Shown: positions 33,678-61,441 of the stretch, piece after piece
How positions within the stretch are numbered: the first letter of the stretch is position 1
How the letters are laid out: every line of letters starts with the position of its first letter
Assembly (NCBI GenBank): GCA_026005175.1
Contig: BPKO01000007.1
Coordinates: 117,183 to 181,182, forward strand
DNA: 64,000 bases
Direction of reading: 5' to 3'
From: Candidatus Tectimicrobiota bacterium
GTDB taxonomy: Bacteria > Tectomicrobia > Entotheonellia > Entotheonellales > Entotheonellaceae
Notes under the pieces: model-generated
Seen by the model: only the letters and a program-made list of their open reading frames with translations
Database searches by the model: none
What the model was told of the DNA's origin: nothing
Made by a program: the position numbers and the translations under genes

Positions 33678-34340
33678 ATGATGCGCACCGTCAACCTGGC
33701 CGTCTTGCTTTCGGGCTCGGGGCGCACCCTGGAGAACCTGCAGCAGGCCATCGCCGCCGGCCGCTTGAGTGCGCGTATCGCTGTCGTCATCAGCAGCCGT
33801 CCAGATGCCTACGGGCTGGTGCGCGCCCGGCGCCTGGGGCTAGAGGCCTTCGTGGTGCCGCGCAAGGCATACGGCGACCTGGCAGCCTTTAACGCCGCCA
33901 TCAACGCCATCCTGGCCCGCTATCCCATCGACCTCGTGGTGCTGGCCGGCTTTCTTTCCCTCTACCAGCCGCCGCCAGCGCTGCAAGGAAAGGTGATGAA
34001 CATCCATCCCGCCCTGCTGCCGGCGTTTGGCGGCAAGGGCTACTACGGCGACCGCGTGCACCGGGCGGTGCTTGAGGCAGGGGTGAAACTCACCGGCTGC
34101 ACCGTCCACTTCGCCGACGAGCACTACGACCATGGCCCGATCATCCTGCAAGAGGCAGTGCCCGTCGAAGACGACGACACCGTCGAGAGCCTGGCCGCAC
34201 GCGTCTTTGCCGTCGAGTGCCGCCTCTACCCGCAGGCGATCCAGCTCTTTGCCGAAAACCGCCTGCGCGTTGAAGGGCGACGGGTGCGCATTCTCCCCCC
34301 GGGTAGCCCTTGCACCACCCAAAAAGACGTGGCAGGATAA
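33678..34340 (+). CDS. purN: Phosphoribosylglycinamide formyltransferase
   Basis: This 220-residue GAR transformylase uses 10-formyl-tetrahydrofolate to form FGAR, the third step of purine synthesis. Key segments are LAVLLSGSGRTLENL and the active-site block MNIHPALLPAFGGKGYYG, with Asn, His and the product-site glycines. The catalytic Asp is in FADEHYDHGPIILQ. KGYYGDRVHRAVLEAG replaces the more common KGxxxHxxA spelling but keeps the layout. ATG 33678 follows the phosphatase stop by 4 bases; FGAR is the substrate of PurL encoded two genes on. Confidence 0.94.
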   Translation: MMRTVNLAVLLSGSGRTLENLQQAIAAGRLSARIAVVISSRPDAYGLVRARRLGLEAFVVPRKAYGDLAAFNAAINAILARYPIDLVVLAGFLSLYQPPPALQGKVMNIHPALLPAFGGKGYYGDRVHRAVLEAGVKLTGCTVHFADEHYDHGPIILQEAVPVEDDDTVESLAARVFAVECRLYPQAIQLFAENRLRVEGRRVRILPPGSPCTTQKDVAG

Positions 34341-34351
34341 AGGAGGCGCAA

Positions 34352-36121
34352 ATGCAAGTTGCAATAACTTGCGGCGCGCCGCGGTTGCTCCCAGCAACGA
34401 GGGGGACGGCGATGAGAGGCTTTGACTTTGAGGCCATCGGGCTGCGCAGCGACGACGCCGAGTCGCTCGACTTTTTCCCGCCCCACTACCGCATCGGGCG
34501 CACCAAGTACATCATCGTCACGGGCGGCGTCATGTCGGGGGTGGGCAAGGGGGTCTTTACCGCTTCGCTGGCCCATCTGCTCCAGTTTTTGGGCTTTTCG
34601 GTGTCGGTGATCAAAATCGACGGCTACCTCAACCTCGACGCCGGCACCCTTAATCCCTACCGCCACGGCGAGACGTTTGTGCTCGACGACGGCACCGAGT
34701 GTGACCTCGATCTGGGGACGTACGAGCGCTTCCTGGACACCACCCTCAACCGCAACAACTACATGACCTCGGGCAAGATCTACTCGCGCATCCTGGCCAA
34801 GGAGCGGCGCGGCGAGTACTTGGGCCGCGACGTGCAAATCGTGCCCCACGTCACCGGGGAGATCAAGTACCTCATCCGGGAAAAGGCCAAGGAAGGGCCC
34901 TACGACATGGTGCTGGTGGAAATCGGCGGCACGGTGGGCGACATCGAAAACCTGCACTTTATCGAAGCGGCGCGCGAGCTCATGAACGACGAGGGCCGAG
35001 ACAACATTATGTTCGCCCACGTCACCGTGGTGCCCTGGTCCGATACCACCGGAGAGCAAAAGAGCAAGCCCACACAGCACAGCGTCAAAAAGCTGCTCGA
35101 GATGGGCATCCAGCCCGACATCATCGTCTGCCGCTCCAAGGATCCCCTGCAGCGCAAAGTACGCGAGAAAATCAGCCTGCACTGTAACGTGCCCATCGAC
35201 CATGTCATCAGCAGCCCCGACGTGGAAAGCATTTATACCTTGCCGTTTCTCTTCCAGCAGCAGCGCCTGGCGGAAATCACCGTGCACCGGCTGCACCTCA
35301 ACATGCCTTACCCGGCCAAGGAAGATGCCCAGATCCCCTTTGAACCCTACGTGCAGCACGTGCAGCGCCACAACCCCACCCTGACGGTGGCCGTGACCGG
35401 CAAGTACTCCTCGATGCGCGACTCCTACATCAGCATTACCAACGCCCTGCAGCACACCGAGCCGTTCGAGCGGGTGCGCATCAACTTGCGCTTTATCGAC
35501 ACCACGGAGTACGACGACCCCACGGTGCCCTTGCACAAGTGCCTCGACGGCGTGCACGGCATCATCGTGCCGGGCGGCTACGGCCTGCGCGGCACCGAGG
35601 GTATGATCCGCTTCATCCAGTACGCGCGCGAGCAGCAGCTTCCTTACCTGGGCCTCTGCTTGGGCTTCCAGCTCGCTGCCATCGAGTTTGCCCGCCACGT
35701 CTGCGGCCTGGAAAAAGCGACCAGCACGGAGTTCGATCCCCACACCCCGGAGCCGGTGATCTCCTTGCTGCCAGAGCAGGAGACGATTCGCGACTTGGGC
35801 GGCACGCAGCGCCTGGGCGGCCATGAGGTGGTGCTGCTGCCGGGAACGCGCGTGCACCACATTTACGGCAAGGACGTGATCCGCGAGCGCTTCCGCCACC
35901 GCTACGAGCTCAACAACCTGTACAAGGACACCCTGGAAAAAGCCGGCTTGCTCTTCTGCGGCATGACGCCCGACCACCGCATCATGCAGATCCTCGACTA
36001 CCCGGCACACCCCTTCTTCATTGCCACCCAGTTCCACCCCGAGTGGACGTCGCGGCCGCTGCGCCCGCACCCGCTGTTTCGGGAATTCATCCGCGCTGCC
36101 AAACGGCACCAGGAACAGTAA
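34352..36121 (+). CDS. pyrG: CTP synthase, divergent with N-terminal extension
   Basis: This 589-residue enzyme should aminate UTP to CTP using glutamine. The synthetase domain carries YIIVTGGVMSGVGKG (P-loop), VEIGGTVGDIENLHFIEA and KPTQHSVKKLLEMGIQPDI. The glutaminase domain has nucleophile Cys in YLGLCLGFQLAAIEF and His-Glu in TQFHPEWTSRP. Unusual points are about 40 extra N-terminal residues and KIDGYLNLDAGTLNPYRHG in place of the usual KxDPYxNxDxGTMxPxxHG. Parts of the glutaminase domain (PVISLLPEQ) recall archaeal enzymes. AAAGGAGG fixes the ATG at 34352; a second ATG at 34412 would shorten the extension. Confidence 0.93.
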   Translation: MQVAITCGAPRLLPATRGTAMRGFDFEAIGLRSDDAESLDFFPPHYRIGRTKYIIVTGGVMSGVGKGVFTASLAHLLQFLGFSVSVIKIDGYLNLDAGTLNPYRHGETFVLDDGTECDLDLGTYERFLDTTLNRNNYMTSGKIYSRILAKERRGEYLGRDVQIVPHVTGEIKYLIREKAKEGPYDMVLVEIGGTVGDIENLHFIEAARELMNDEGRDNIMFAHVTVVPWSDTTGEQKSKPTQHSVKKLLEMGIQPDIIVCRSKDPLQRKVREKISLHCNVPIDHVISSPDVESIYTLPFLFQQQRLAEITVHRLHLNMPYPAKEDAQIPFEPYVQHVQRHNPTLTVAVTGKYSSMRDSYISITNALQHTEPFERVRINLRFIDTTEYDDPTVPLHKCLDGVHGIIVPGGYGLRGTEGMIRFIQYAREQQLPYLGLCLGFQLAAIEFARHVCGLEKATSTEFDPHTPEPVISLLPEQETIRDLGGTQRLGGHEVVLLPGTRVHHIYGKDVIRERFRHRYELNNLYKDTLEKAGLLFCGMTPDHRIMQILDYPAHPFFIATQFHPEWTSRPLRPHPLFREFIRAAKRHQEQ

Positions 36122-36133
36122 CCGGAGAGCGCC

Positions 36134-39100
36134 GTGTTGCAGACGCACGTCCTCGTGGTGAGCGCCGCGCCGCACGTCCCGGATGTGCGTGGCCAGGCGC
36201 TCTGCCAGGCCATCCGCGAGGATCTGGGTTTGCCCGTCGAAGCGGTGCGCACCGCCTTCGTCTACACGATCCATACCTCGTGGGCGCGCGCCGAGCTGGA
36301 AGAAGCGCGGCGGGTGCTGTTTACCGATGCCATCGTGCAGACCTCCTACTGGAACCGCCGGCCGCCGGAGCCCTGCCACTGGATCGTGCAGGTGGGCCTG
36401 CTTCCTGGGGTGACCGACAACGTGGGGCGCACCGCCACCGAAGCGCTGGCCGACATCTACCGTCGCCCCCTGCCCGGGGCCGTCTATGCCTCCTCGCTTT
36501 ACCTCTTGCGTGGCGCCCTGGCTTACTCCGATGTGGAGCGCCTGGTGCGCGAGCTGCTGGCCAACCCGCTCATTCACCAGTGGCGCATCACCGCTGCTGA
36601 GGCCTGGCACGACGACCCCCAGGCTTTCCTGCCACCGCCGGTGGCCGGAGAGGAAAAGCCGCCGCAAGTGGCCACCATTTCGCTGGCAGACGATGACGCG
36701 GCGCTGCTGCGCCTGAGCGAGGCGCGCCTGCTGGCGCTCAACCTAGAAGAAATGCAGGCCATCCGGGCATACTTTCGCGACCCGGCGGTGCAGGCGCGCC
36801 GCCGCGCTTACGGCTTGGGCGGCGCGCCTACCGACGTGGAGCTCGAGTGCCCTCGCCCAGACCTGGTCCGAGCACTGCAAGCACAAGATCTTCAACAGCC
36901 ACCATCGCGTACCACGACGGCGAACGGGGGCGTCCGCACGGTCATCCGCAGCCTCTTTCAGCACCTACATCGTCGCGCGCCACCGAGCGGGATGCGCCGG
37001 GGACGGGCGACCGTGGACATGGCTGCCTCTCGGTGTTTCACGGACAACGCCGGGGTCATCACCTTCAACGATCGACTGGAGCCTGTGCGTTCAAGGTGGA
37101 GACCCACAACTCCCCCTCGCGCCCTCGACCCCTACGCCGGCGCCCTCACCGGCATCCTGGGCGTGAACCGCGACCCCTTGGGCACCGGCATGAGGCTGCC
37201 CGGCTGCATCTTCAACGCCGACGTCCTTCTGCTTTGCGCCGACCCCTTCTACGAGGAGCGCCCTGCCGCCCCGCCTCCTGCACCCCAAGCGCCGTGTTCT
37301 ACGAGGGCGTGCTCCGGGGCGTCGGAGCACGGCGCCAACCAGAGCGGCATCCCGCACCGTCAACGGCTGCCGTGGTCTTCGACGACCGCTACCTCGGCAA
37401 GCCCCTCGTGTTCTGCGGCACTGGCCGGGCCTCATCCCCCGGCGCGCCTCGGCGGCCGAGCCGGCCCACCACAAGCGCGCTCGGCCCTGGCGACCGCCAT
37501 CGTCATGGCGGGCGGGCCGCATCGGCAAGGACGGCATCCACGGCGCCACCTTCTCCTCCGCGTGCCCTCCACGAGGCGTCAGCCCGGCCTCGGCGGTGCA
37601 GCTCGGCGACCCCTTCACCCAGAAGCAAAGGCTCTTCGACTTTCTCCTCGATCGCCCGCGACCGGCGGCTCTACACCGGCATCACCGACAACGGCGCGGG
37701 AGGGTTGTCTCTCCTCGAGCGTGGGGGAGATGGCCGTGCTGAGTCGGGCGGGGCTGCGAGCTCGCACCTGGCCCGGGCCCCGCTCAAGTACCCGGGCCTC
37801 GATCCCTGGGAGATCCTGCTTTCGGAGTCCCAGGAGCGCATGACCCTGGCGGTGCCGCCCGCGCGCCTTGACGCCCTGCTGGCGCTGGCGGCCGGCGCGA
37901 GGTGGAGGCCACGGTGCTGGGCACCTTTACCGATACGGGGCTGTTTCACGTCCTCTACGCCGGCAAGACGGTGGCCCTGCTCGACTTGGACTTTCTGCAC
38001 CACGGCCTGCCCGAGCTGCACCTGCAAGCCCGCTGGCAGCCGCCGCGCTACCCCGAGCCCTCTTTCCCCTGCCCGCCGGATCTGACGCCGTCGCTGCTGC
38101 AGATGCTGGGGCGCCTCAACATTTGCAGCAAGGAGTGGGTGATCCGCCAGTACGACCACGAGGTGCAGGGCACCAGCGTCGTCAAGCCGCTGGTGGGCGT
38201 CGACAACGACGGCCCCAGCGACGCCGCGGTGCTGCGGCCGCTGCTAGACTCCATGGAAGGGGTGATCGTGGCCAACGGCATCTGCCCGCGCTATGGCGAC
38301 ATCGACACCTACCACATGACTGCGTGCGCCATCGACGAAGCCATCCGCAACGTCCTTGCCGTGGGCGGCAGCCTGGGCCACATCGCCGGCTTGGACAACT
38401 TCTGCTGGCCCGACCCGGTGGCTGGCGGCGACCAACCCCGACGGGCCCTACAAGCTGGCGCAGCTGGTGCGCGCCTGCCAGGCCCTTTACGACTACTGCA
38501 CCGCCTATGACGTGCCCTGCATTTCGGGCAAAGACAGCATGAAGAACGACTACCACGTGGGCAACGTCAAGATCTCGGTCCCGCCCACGCGTGCTGTTTT
38601 CGGTGGTGGCGCGCCTGCCCGACGTGCGGCGGGCAGTGACCATGGACGTCAAGCGCCCCGGCGATGTGGTCTTCGTCTTGGGCGAGACCAAAGCCGAATT
38701 GGGCGCTTCGGAGTACTATGCCATGCACGGCGCCATCGGCAACCGCGTGCCGCAAGTCGACGCCCGGCGCGCCCGCCGCCTCTACGAAGCGCTGGCTGCG
38801 GCCACGCAGCGCGGGCTAGTGAGTGCCTGCCACGACTGCTCCGACGGGGGCTTGGGCGTGGCTGCAGCCGAGATGGCCTTTGCCGGCGGCTTGGGCATGA
38901 CCCTTGACTTGCGTGCCCTGCCGCGCGAGCCCGACCTCGACCGCGACGACTTCCTGCTCTATTCTGAGTCGGCCAGCCGCTTCGTGGTCACCGTCCCGGT
39001 GGCAAACGTCGAGGCCTTCCGCCGCCTCATGCGCGGGCTGCCCGTGGGCGAAGTCGGCCACGTCCTGGCCACCCCCGATTTTGTCGTTATCGGCCTGCAC

Positions 39101-39169
39101 GGCCGCGAGGTCGTCCGCAGCCACCTGGCCGAGCTCAAGGCGGCCTGGCAGCGCCCCTTGCGCTGGTAG
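36134..39169 (+). CDS. purL: FGAM synthase, PurS-PurL fusion (frameshifted patch)
   Basis: This ATP-dependent enzyme of about 1010 residues converts FGAR to FGAM together with the PurQ glutaminase. The first ~170 residues are PurS-like (VQVGLLPGVTDNVGRTATEA, VYASSLYLLRGALAY). The PurL core follows with TWSEHCKHKIF, FKVETHNSPS, TGITDNGAGGLS and CISGKDSMKNDY. The GTG at 36134 follows GGAG. Residues to about 36855 and the end from about 37905 are nearly clean. Between them many frame changes are needed, plus single ones near 37897, 38428 and 38590. FGAM synthase is essential for purines, so error rather than decay is likely. Confidence 0.88.
36860..37905. other. Error-dense patch inside purL
   Basis: About 1 kb where the PurL protein (for example GILGVNRDPLGTGM, VVFDDRYLGKPLVFCG, ESQERMTLAVPPARL) is legible only by switching among frames every few dozen codons. 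The sequence before 36850 is clean and that after 37905 needs only isolated corrections. Composition and indel density match the aconitase patch at 8060-10500. Both lie in slowly evolving enzymes, where mis-joining of reads from different organisms is easiest. Confidence 0.7.
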
Positions 39170-39176
39170 CGAACCC

Positions 39177-39971
39177 ATGGTGCGCCCCCGCGTCCTGGTC
39201 CTGAGCGGCTACGGCATCAACTGCGAGCAAGAAACCGCCCACGCCTTTAATCTGCCCAGCGTGGGCGGCGAGGCCACCGTGGTGCACCTGGGCGACTTGC
39301 TGGCTCGCCCCGAGCAGCTCGACCGCTTCCACATCCTCGTCCTGCCCGGGGGCTTTTCCTTTGGCGACCACATCGCCGCCGGCGCCGTTTTGGCTACCAA
39401 GCTGCGCTACCGCCTGGAGCAGCCCTTGAGCCGCTTTCTGCGTGATGGTAAACTGGTCATAGGCATTTGCAACGGGTTTCAAGTGCTGGTGCGGCTCGGG
39501 TTGCTGCCGGCCAGCGGCGGCTTGTGGCAGCAAGAGGCGACGCTGGCACCCAACGATTCGGGACGCTTCGAAGACCGGTGGGTGTACCTGCGCATCGAGC
39601 CGGCGTGCCCTTCGCCGCTGGTAGAGGGGATTGAGCGGCTTTATCTGCCGGTACGCCACGGAGAAGGCAAGTTCGTGCCGCGCGATGCCGCCGTGCTGCA
39701 GGCCATGCAGCGGCAGCACCTGGTGGCGGCACGCTACTGTGCCCCCGATGGGGGCCCTGCCTCTTACCCCTGGAATCCCAACGGGTCGGTCGATGACATT
39801 GCTGCCGTGTGCGATCCGAGCGGTCGCGTCTTCGGGCTCATGCCCCACCCCGAGGCCTATGTACACCGCACACAGCACCCGCGCTGGACGCGCGAGTGCC
39901 TGCCCGAAGAAGGCATGGGCGTGCGGCTTTTTCGCAATGCCGTAACCTTTGCCCGTACCCACCTGCTGTGA
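39177..39971 (+). CDS. purQ: FGAM synthase glutaminase subunit PurQ
   Basis: This 264-residue class I glutamine amidotransferase supplies ammonia to PurL. The nucleophile Cys is in IGICNGFQVLVRLGLLP and the His-Glu pair in GLMPHPEAYVHRTQHPRW. LSGYGINCEQETAHAFN and FSFGDHIAAGAV are PurQ hallmarks. ATG at 39177 is 7 bases after the purL stop. It is longer than the small Bacillus-type PurQ (about 227) and resembles the partner of large PurS-PurL fusions; the separate purS gene is accordingly absent. Confidence 0.94.
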   Translation: MVRPRVLVLSGYGINCEQETAHAFNLPSVGGEATVVHLGDLLARPEQLDRFHILVLPGGFSFGDHIAAGAVLATKLRYRLEQPLSRFLRDGKLVIGICNGFQVLVRLGLLPASGGLWQQEATLAPNDSGRFEDRWVYLRIEPACPSPLVEGIERLYLPVRHGEGKFVPRDAAVLQAMQRQHLVAARYCAPDGGPASYPWNPNGSVDDIAAVCDPSGRVFGLMPHPEAYVHRTQHPRWTRECLPEEGMGVRLFRNAVTFARTHLL

Positions 39972-58164: not shown

Positions 58165-58960
58165 TCAGTCTGCCTTTCCCAAGAGGTGGCGGATGTCAAA
58201 CGGCGAGGTGAGGCTCAAGCCGCCATCGACGGTGATCGTCTGGCCGCAGATCCAGGCGGCATCGTCAGAACAGAGAAAGGCGACGACGCCGGCAATGTCT
58301 TCCGGCGTCCCCACCCGCCGAAGCGGCGTGTAGGTGACGATGTTCTGGGCCAGCACGCGGAACACCCGTTCGCCAAAGACGTGGGCGGAATCGGTGTCGA
58401 CAAAGCCGGGGTTGACGCCGTTGACGCGGATGCCCCGCGCGGCCAGCTCGCAGGCGAGGTAGGCGGTCAGCACTTCCAGCGCGCCCTTGGCAGCGGCCAG
58501 GGCCCCGTGCAGCGGGATGTAGCGGTGGGCGTCGATGCCCGACACGGTGACAATTTTGCCTGCCCGCCCCTGCATGAGCTCTGCGGCCAACTGCACGGCC
58601 CGCACAAAAGACTTAAGGGTAATGGCCAGCGTTTTTTCCAGGTGGTGCGCTTGCAGCTCGAGAAGGGGCTTGAAGGCTGTGGCGGCGGCATTGGCGACGA
58701 AAATGTCGAGCGCGCCAAAGACCTCGCCGATGCGGGCAAACAGCGCCTCCACAGCCGGTTGCTCGCCCAAATCGGCCGGCACCACCAGGGCCCCGGCGGC
58801 CAAAGGCACGGATGGCTGCTGCTGTTTCTTCTGCTGCTGCCGCCTGCCGGCGGTAGTGCACGACCACATCGGCGCCTTCGCGCGCCAGCCGCAGAGCAAT
58901 GGCCCGCCCAATCCCCCGCGAACTGCCGGTGACCAGCGCCACCTGTCCGCAAAAGCGCAT
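58165..58960 (-). CDS. FabL-like short-chain dehydrogenase (one frameshift)
   Basis: This SDR of about 264 residues resembles enoyl-ACP reductase III (FabL). Features are the cofactor motif [39 protein letters not shown], and the active-site region [19 protein letters not shown], ending [16 protein letters not shown] and GQTITVDGG. In FabL the catalytic Tyr is seven residues before the Lys; here that position is His ([10 protein letters not shown]), with Tyr five earlier. The frame breaks at plus-strand CCCC 58791-58794. It overlaps nothing but shares GGAGG with the end of the DUF309 gene. Confidence 0.82.
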
Positions 58961-58963
58961 GGC

Positions 58964-59761
58964 TCATTCCTCCACGGATTGGCCGAGCAAGCGCGGTATG
59001 GCCTGGGGCTCGAAGCGGTACGCCGCGGTGTCGGGGAGCGCGGCCAGCTGCTGGCGTAGGGCCTCCAGCCGCTGCACGAAGGGACCTATCGCCACCCCCC
59101 TTGTAGGGCGAGGGATAGCCAGCCAGCCGGCGCAGGCCGGTATGCAGGAGGGTAAGGGCGCCGCGCAGGTTATGGCTTTCGAGGTGGCGCATGGCCACCG
59201 CCACTTGGATCAGCCCTTGGTAAAACGCGCTGGCTGCGTCGCCACTGCGTCCCCATAGGGTCTCCAGGTACTCGTGACAGGCAAAATACAGGCCGGCGTC
59301 AAACAGCGCGGCGCCGCGCAGGAGCTCGAGCGGCACCGGCGTCTCTCGTACCCCATGCACCTGCAACGCCGCCTGCCACGTGCGCCGGGCGTAAGCGGCG
59401 ATCTCCTCGCGGTGCGGCTGCAAGGCGGTAGGAAGGCACACCGTCTGGGCGCCCCAGACCTCTAGGTCCTGCCAGGTTGCTTCTTGTGGCCACGTTGTCC
59501 CTGTGCTCTCTAGCCATTTCCCTTCGCGCAGCGTCCGCACCAGCGCCGTCGGCGCCAGCGGCTGGGGCCCCAGGGCGGCAAAGGCCACCGGCGTGGCACT
59601 TCTACCAGCTGCGCAAGCCGAAAGCCGGCCGAGGAGACGGGCAAGGTATAAGCTCTCAGCAGCCAGTAGGCCTGTACGGCGGGCTGCGGCTGCTGCACCG
59701 CGTGCACCGCCAGCGCTTCCAGCGCGTCGATGAGCGTATCGTACGTCCAAGGCGATGCCAT
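58964..59761 (-). CDS. DUF309 domain protein (two frameshifts)
   Basis: This protein of about 265 residues has a C-terminal half that is a DUF309 helical domain: LFDAGLYFACHEYLETLWG, then FYQGLIQVAVAMRHLESHNL and GALTLLHTGLRRLAGYP. The first half (MASPWTYDTLIDALEALAVH) is unrecognised. Frame changes near 59600 and at the C6 run 59095-59100 must be corrected; it then ends IPRLLGQSVEE at the TGA at 58964-58966. It sits between hflX and the FabL-like gene on the same strand, 4 bases from the latter. DUF309 has no established biochemical role. Confidence 0.75.
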
Positions 59762-59776
59762 GGCGTCGCGTAGCGG

Positions 59777-61441
59777 CTAGTGAGCCGTGGCCAGCGAGGC
59801 GGCCGCCTCGCCGTGGAGTTGGCTCCAGATGACGTCCTGCATGCGCTCGATCAGCCGCGGCAGGGTGCGGCGGTCCTGCGCCGAGATGGCCACGCCCTGG
59901 TAGAGGCGCTCGAGGTTCGCCACCACCTCCGGGCTCACCAAGTCGATCTTGTTGAGAACCAGCAAACGCGGCAGGTGGTCGAGGCCGAGCTGCGCCAGGA
60001 TTTTCTCCACGGCCCGGATGTGGTCCTCAAAGGCCGGGTTGCTGACGTCGACCACGTGCAAGAGCAAGTCGGCGTCGTGCAGCTCGTCGAGCGTGGCCTG
60101 GAAGGCCGCCATCAAGTCGCGAGGCAAGTCGCGAATAAAACCCACGGTGTCGGTGATGATCACCTCCAGGTCACGGGGAAAGCGCAGGCGCCGGCTGGCA
60201 GGATCGAGGGTGGCAAAAAGCTGGTCCTGGACCAGGACACTGCTCTTGGTCAAGGCGTTGAGCAGCGTCGACTTGCCCGCATTGGTGTAGCCGATGATGG
60301 AAATTACCGGCAGCTGGCGGCGCTGGCGCAGCTGGCGGCGCAAGTGGCGCTGGCGCGCGATGCGGCGCAGTTCCTTCTCCAGGTGATGAATGCGGTCCTG
60401 GACGCGGCGGCGGTCGATTTCGAGCTTTGTCTCGCCAGGGCCGCGCCCGCCAATGCCGCCGGCCAGCCGCGACAGGGCCGTTCCCTGGTTGGTGAGGTAT
60501 GGCATGCGGTACTTGAGCTGCGCCAGTTCCACCTGCAGCTTGCCCTCGCGGCTGTGGGCGCGCTGGGCAAAAATGTCGAGAATGAGCATGGTGCGGTCGA
60601 TGACTTTGAGGTCGGTGCGCTCGGCGATGGCCCGGCTCTGGCTGGGCGTCAGGCTTTGGTCGAAAATCAGCAGGCTGGCGCCTAGCTGCAAGCTGCGCAC
60701 CATCACCTCGTCGAGCTTGCCCCGCCCAAGCACGTAGTGGGGATCCAGGCGGCTGCGCTGCTGAATGACACGCCCCACAGGCACCACGCCGCAGGTGCGG
60801 GCGAGCTCTGCCAGCTCGGCCAGCGAGTCCTCCGCTGCCGCCTTGCTGCCGGCGGTGACGCTGACCAGGATGGCCCGCTCGTGGGCATCCCCCACCGCAT
60901 AGGCACGCTGGGTGCGCTCGAACTCGTCTTCGAGCGACTGGATAAAGCCCAGAAAATCGGCTTCTAGCTGCGCCAGGGGCACGTGTTCCTGGACTTCCCA
61001 CTGCCGCCCTTCGGGGTTGTCCGGCAGCAGGTGCGCCACGTGGGCGCTGGCAGGAAGGCCGTCGGCCGCCACGTTGAGCGCCACCATGATATCAAAGCGC
61101 AGCTGCGCCAGGTCGGCCATGTCGTCGGAGGTGAACGGTTCGCCGCTCAAGTGCGTGTGAATGTAACGCAAGCCGCGCAGGCGGTTGGGTGCCACCCGAA
61201 AACGGCCCAGATCGGGGAGGAAAATGCCGCGGTGGTCCCCCACCACCACGTACTCGATGCTGCCCTGGCGGTCAACCAAGATGCCCACCTGGCGGTTGAG
61301 CTCCCATGCCAGGGAACAGAGGGAACGGGCCAGATCCTGGGTAATCAGCCGCGGCGCCGGCACCCGGCGGCGGTAGATGTGCTGGAGCCGACGGATCTGG
61401 TTCGCCTTGAGTCCAGTCACCTGACCGTGAATGCGCTTAAT
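59777..61441 (-). CDS. hflX: GTPase HflX
   Basis: This ribosome-splitting heat-stress GTPase is unusually long, about 554 residues. An N-terminal extension of about 200 residues (IHGQVTGLKANQIRRLQHIY, with YIHTHLSGEPFTSDDMADLA) precedes the HflX nucleotide-binding domain (YVLGRGKLDEVMVRSLQLGA, GGRGPGETKLEIDRRR). The GTPase domain has G1 GYTNAGKSTLLNAL, G3 DTVGFIRDLP and G4 VLNKIDL. Related long HflX proteins start M-K-x-R-I-H-G; the matching codon here is ATT at 61441, with GAGGAG 8-9 bases upstream. The first standard start is GTG at 61420. Confidence 0.9.
   Translation of the reverse strand: MKRIHGQVTGLKANQIRRLQHIYRRRVPAPRLITQDLARSLCSLAWELNRQVGILVDRQGSIEYVVVGDHRGIFLPDLGRFRVAPNRLRGLRYIHTHLSGEPFTSDDMADLAQLRFDIMVALNVAADGLPASAHVAHLLPDNPEGRQWEVQEHVPLAQLEADFLGFIQSLEDEFERTQRAYAVGDAHERAILVSVTAGSKAAAEDSLAELAELARTCGVVPVGRVIQQRSRLDPHYVLGRGKLDEVMVRSLQLGASLLIFDQSLTPSQSRAIAERTDLKVIDRTMLILDIFAQRAHSREGKLQVELAQLKYRMPYLTNQGTALSRLAGGIGGRGPGETKLEIDRRRVQDRIHHLEKELRRIARQRHLRRQLRQRRQLPVISIIGYTNAGKSTLLNALTKSSVLVQDQLFATLDPASRRLRFPRDLEVIITDTVGFIRDLPRDLMAAFQATLDELHDADLLLHVVDVSNPAFEDHIRAVEKILAQLGLDHLPRLLVLNKIDLVSPEVVANLERLYQGVAISAQDRRTLPRLIERMQDVIWSQLHGEAAASLATAH

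Follow-up and report, generated by a model that had tools for sequence, protein, structure and literature searches.

The window analysed here, a stretch of 64 kb, is the 3' end of a 181-kb contig in an assembly of 3.99 Mb that comprises 14 contigs and has an estimated completeness of 77.5%. purL sits in it between pyrG and purQ (Table 1) and would code for a product of about 990 amino acids if read in frame. The N-terminal piece of purL matches Pfam PurS, and downstream pieces match, each separately, the NCBIfam PurL models TIGR01736 (E=4.5e-27) and NF002290 (E=5e-31), the shortness of the pieces keeping both matches below the cut-off set for the whole protein. Curated PurL models are matched outside the disturbed part of the gene, which identifies the product as PurL, FGAM synthase. 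The PurS-like part (36134-36847) is fused onto PurL while the purQ-like gene is separate, and relatives have the same long form. purL is intact and in frame in the host's family (loci L003, L004 and L005); the same-family genomes G002 and G003, for instance, align without a frame change across the whole of the gene. The assembly yielded no further match to purL.

Table 1. Features of the purL locus and of the aconitase gene, in positions of the window.
Feature	Position	Strand	Basis
pyrG (CTP synthase), intact 5' neighbour, clean local sequence	34310..36121	+	NCBIfam NF003792/TIGR00337
purL with fused N-terminal PurS-like part	36134..39169	+	homology to intact 1047-aa ORF L005
Clean 5' part of purL, host sequence	36134..36846	+	0 frame changes
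Very probable artefact patch, apparent host/foreign blend with 52-53 surplus bases	36847..37765	+	DNA identity, diagnostic sites, insertions
Host-like again, 1 base missing at ~37892	37766..37895	+	85% aa identity to L005 and L004
3' part of purL, host, two isolated 1-base insertions	37896..39169	+	DNA identity, frameshift-aware alignment
purQ-like glutamine amidotransferase, intact 3' neighbour	39177..39971	+	Pfam GATase_5 E=2e-78
Probable sister artefact patch, aconitase gene	8063..~10460	-	Pfam Aconitase; foreign-family DNA identity

A frameshift-aware alignment, with an intact same-family purL (L005, G001) as reference, places no frame change in 36170-36848, 26-31 in 36849-37895 and 2 in 37896-39165. 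This bears out a sequence-only reading of the region, which had described an error-dense patch in purL, clean before and with isolated errors after. A codon-usage HMM, which is free of homology, likewise loses a coherent frame over 36848-37895 and has long open frames on either side. The extent given earlier, 36860-37905, holds as to the patch itself but not as to its end: the dense part stops at ~37765, and the later boundary reflects the lone deletion at ~37892, which lies 3' of the dense insertion stretch. Nor are the frame changes balanced, as the word "bidirectional" had implied. Compared with six to eleven homologues, 36848-37763 carries its 52-53 inserted bases in about 33 runs, with no deletions. 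With some 33 indel events packed into 0.92 kb of a 3-kb gene whose flanks are clean, the pattern is not one of chance decay. The GC content of the patch is 0.706. Patch and flanks also differ in codon use, on which the sequence-only reading had proposed to compare them, the Leu codons CTC and CTG occurring in a ratio of 13:9 in the patch versus 11:34 in the flanks (p=0.007). Farther 3', in host-family sequence of purL, isolated 1-base insertions at ~38422 and ~38591 suggest that the assembly retains indel errors at some background rate.

The affinity of the gene reverses within the patch. The 5' part of purL has 61-65% amino acid identity to three same-family genomes and at most 48% to any other genome aligned over most of it. 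The three same-family genomes score 706-758 on the 5' flank and 1661-1743 on the 3' flank, compared with maxima of 421 and 1465 outside the host's class; L007, which belongs to that class, scores 1602 on the 3' flank. Over 36849-37700, however, the foreign L032 (858) and L036 (812) outscore all three own-family genomes (729-755), and Deferrisomatales and other Deltaproteobacteria bins overtake the same-family genomes. The same holds at the DNA level when no reading guide is used: the patch shows 80-81% identity with the foreign family G041, G045, G046 and G047 (locus L032, from a "Deltaproteobacteria" MAG, belongs to G041) versus 72-75% with the own family, and the 3' flank is 75-78% identical to the own family versus 68-71% to the foreign one. 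With all eight of the neutral guide proteins, the patch reads as closer to G041 and G045-G047 (0.76-0.81) than to the own family (0.69-0.75), whereas the 3' flank, read with two of the eight, gives the opposite result, the own family being closer. Judged by these similarities, the patch is a switch from host to foreign family and back to host within one gene, a result that supports metagenome-assembly chimerism over chance decay, as had been argued earlier. The best match to the patch among the foreign relatives is 81%; the donor species itself did not turn up. Placement in a maximum-likelihood tree, built from the read-through of the patch, was dropped as proof of foreign origin, since it depends on the guide: the own-guided reading falls as a long branch in the own family and the foreign-guided reading falls in the foreign clade. 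The guide-free DNA identities and the eight neutral guides serve in its place.

The patch is probably not simply a piece of a foreign genome. It reaches an identity of 0.80 with the foreign family and of 0.752 with the own family. Identity between the two families is only 0.69, and genuine foreign-group members reach 0.64-0.69 with the own family. At the 128 fully diagnostic sites of the patch, the counts for own, foreign and neither are 60:60:8, compared with 65:13:7 in the flank (own:foreign in patch versus flank, Fisher p=2e-6). Own and foreign sites follow one another in random order (59 runs, with 61 expected). A recombinant would give blocks and a column-wise mixture of reads would give none, so that the order seen in the patch fits a mixture. 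The inserted bases bring the patch closer to the foreign family than random bases would (z about 7) and do not clearly bring it closer to the own family; they are suggestive of a second allele, the consensus then being a "union of two alleles". The patch, moreover, covers the best-conserved third of the protein (amino acid identity between L005 and L008 of 0.66, versus 0.38 and 0.55), and the exact words common to own and foreign sequences are longest within it, reaching 32 bp. The purL patch thus appears to mix host and foreign sequence at the level of single bases, with surplus bases besides, rather than to join two pieces cleanly. Of the "chimeric joining" inferred by the sequence-only reading, the chimerism stands and a clean join probably does not, at least in purL. 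A blend favours mixed-read consensus or polishing over a simple chimeric contig join.

The other error-saturated patch, 27 kb away in the aconitase gene, was already regarded as alike, and it matches the same foreign family: it is 80% identical to G041, G045 and G046 versus 71% to G002 and G003. Affinity switches within the gene, between ~7990 and ~8070, and across the switch the own:foreign counts at diagnostic sites go from 39:11 to 152:372 (p=1e-11), the latter resembling the 135:366 of true members of the foreign group. Insertions (~32) and deletions (~24) are comparable in number. The aconitase patch appears on these counts to be nearly pure foreign sequence, with a host share close to nil. 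For a common artefact, no single argument is stronger than the tracing of both patches to one foreign family.

A scan for further incoherent stretches covered about 580 kb, made up of contig C7 together with 400 kb from C1 and C2. Many frame breaks occur in a region with his genes on the minus strand at G000 C7:76596-79264 (L115:16596-19264), and 7.8 kb at G000 C1:288506-296350 (L140:8506-16350) has poor coding coherence and almost no match to either the own or the foreign family; this stretch is perhaps accessory or mobile DNA. No foreign-family signal was found in these two scan candidates, both of which were tested for it, and in the region with his genes the host family is the best match (73% versus 70-71%). 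In the window itself, a cluster of 0.95 kb on the minus strand (58841-59788) has short coding segments in alternating frames and keeps most of its coding signal, and probably represents a few isolated indels.

Taken together, the evidence makes it very probable that the purL patch is an artefact of consensus building in the metagenome assembly, in which sequence of a foreign bacterium was mixed in, and not biology; it is not pseudogenisation, recoding or transfer. Found together in purL are a within-gene switch of affinity, a strongly conserved stretch with long shared words, and a contaminating taxon that recurs elsewhere. A natural pseudogene would carry its disruptions on sequence of the host lineage, whereas the affinity of the patch is foreign. 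The foreign sequence is that of a second bacterium, of a Deferrisomatales-like family unrelated to the host. Probably, reads of such a co-occurring bacterium were recruited to the cores of conserved genes, helped by the long exact words that the host and foreign cores have in common, and were voted into the consensus during long-read consensus, gap filling or polishing. In purL, host and foreign reads would both have been there, giving a mixture with surplus bases; in aconitase, host support would have been lacking, and what remains would be foreign almost throughout, with indel errors of the ordinary kind. In the organism itself, purL is expected to be intact.

A variant of the artefact explanation, rather than an alternative to it, is that a single foreign read or contig supplied the whole patch, as a simple chimeric fill to which errors were added, and that its apparent host share reflects an unsampled intermediate foreign lineage. 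The almost purely foreign aconitase patch would agree with such a fill, but in its identity to the own family the purL patch far exceeds every foreign-group member, and its rate of "neither" sites, 8/128, is below the 17-20/128 of intermediate lineages; we regard the variant as unlikely. Much less probable still is that the host's own sequence simply carries unpolished raw long-read error, from low coverage or a drop-out of polishing, without any foreign DNA. The patch is indeed GC-rich and full of indels, and isolated insertions occur elsewhere in purL; random error, however, cuts similarity to everything, whereas here the similarity to the foreign family increases from 0.71 in the flank to 0.80 in the patch while that to the own family falls. 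Moreover, so many insertions with no deletion would be an unusual spectrum for raw reads.

Explanations that take the DNA as real fare worse. The foreign signal lies within the gene and has sharp bounds, as it would if purL, and aconitase too, had recently received DNA from a Deferrisomatales-like bacterium and then decayed rapidly. Yet two independent conserved genes would have to take DNA from the same family, dozens of indels would be needed only inside the imported stretches while the flanks of essential genes stayed clean, recombination does not yield a base-by-base 60:60 interleave, and a second purL match was sought in the assembly and not found. We therefore consider import highly improbable. 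As to programmed or extensive frameshift recoding, or some special genetic feature of purL, nothing speaks for it besides the frame changes themselves; the in-frame purL genes of the same family, the neighbouring genes, which do not show such a pattern, and the foreign signal in the patch all count against it, and its probability is negligible.

An artefact of this kind matters for how the assembly is used. purL is presumably intact in the organism, and the patch stretch is to be treated as unreliable. As a case of data quality, the locus indicates that conserved housekeeping genes in this assembly can carry kilobase patches of another organism, which would yield false pseudogenes, false auxotrophies (in purine synthesis and the TCA cycle) and misleading single-gene trees. 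Such patches may contribute to the assembly's completeness of 77% despite only 14 contigs. Loss of frame together with a reversal of the best-matching family within a gene, as used here, provides a simple test for them that does not need reads.

Comparable errors have been described. Reads of other species that map spuriously to conserved rRNA regions write consensus errors into polished MAGs (PMC9600527). The purL patch is like this polishing error in that foreign reads would alter the consensus only in conserved stretches and the flanks are good, and unlike it in that the genes affected are the protein-coding purL and aconitase rather than rRNA genes, the patches are of kilobase length and the surplus bases are counted in dozens. 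More generally, errors in long-read metagenome assemblies (Trigodet et al., 2025, cited as reference 59 in PMC12424758) are reported to include chimerism of a local kind within contiguous contigs.
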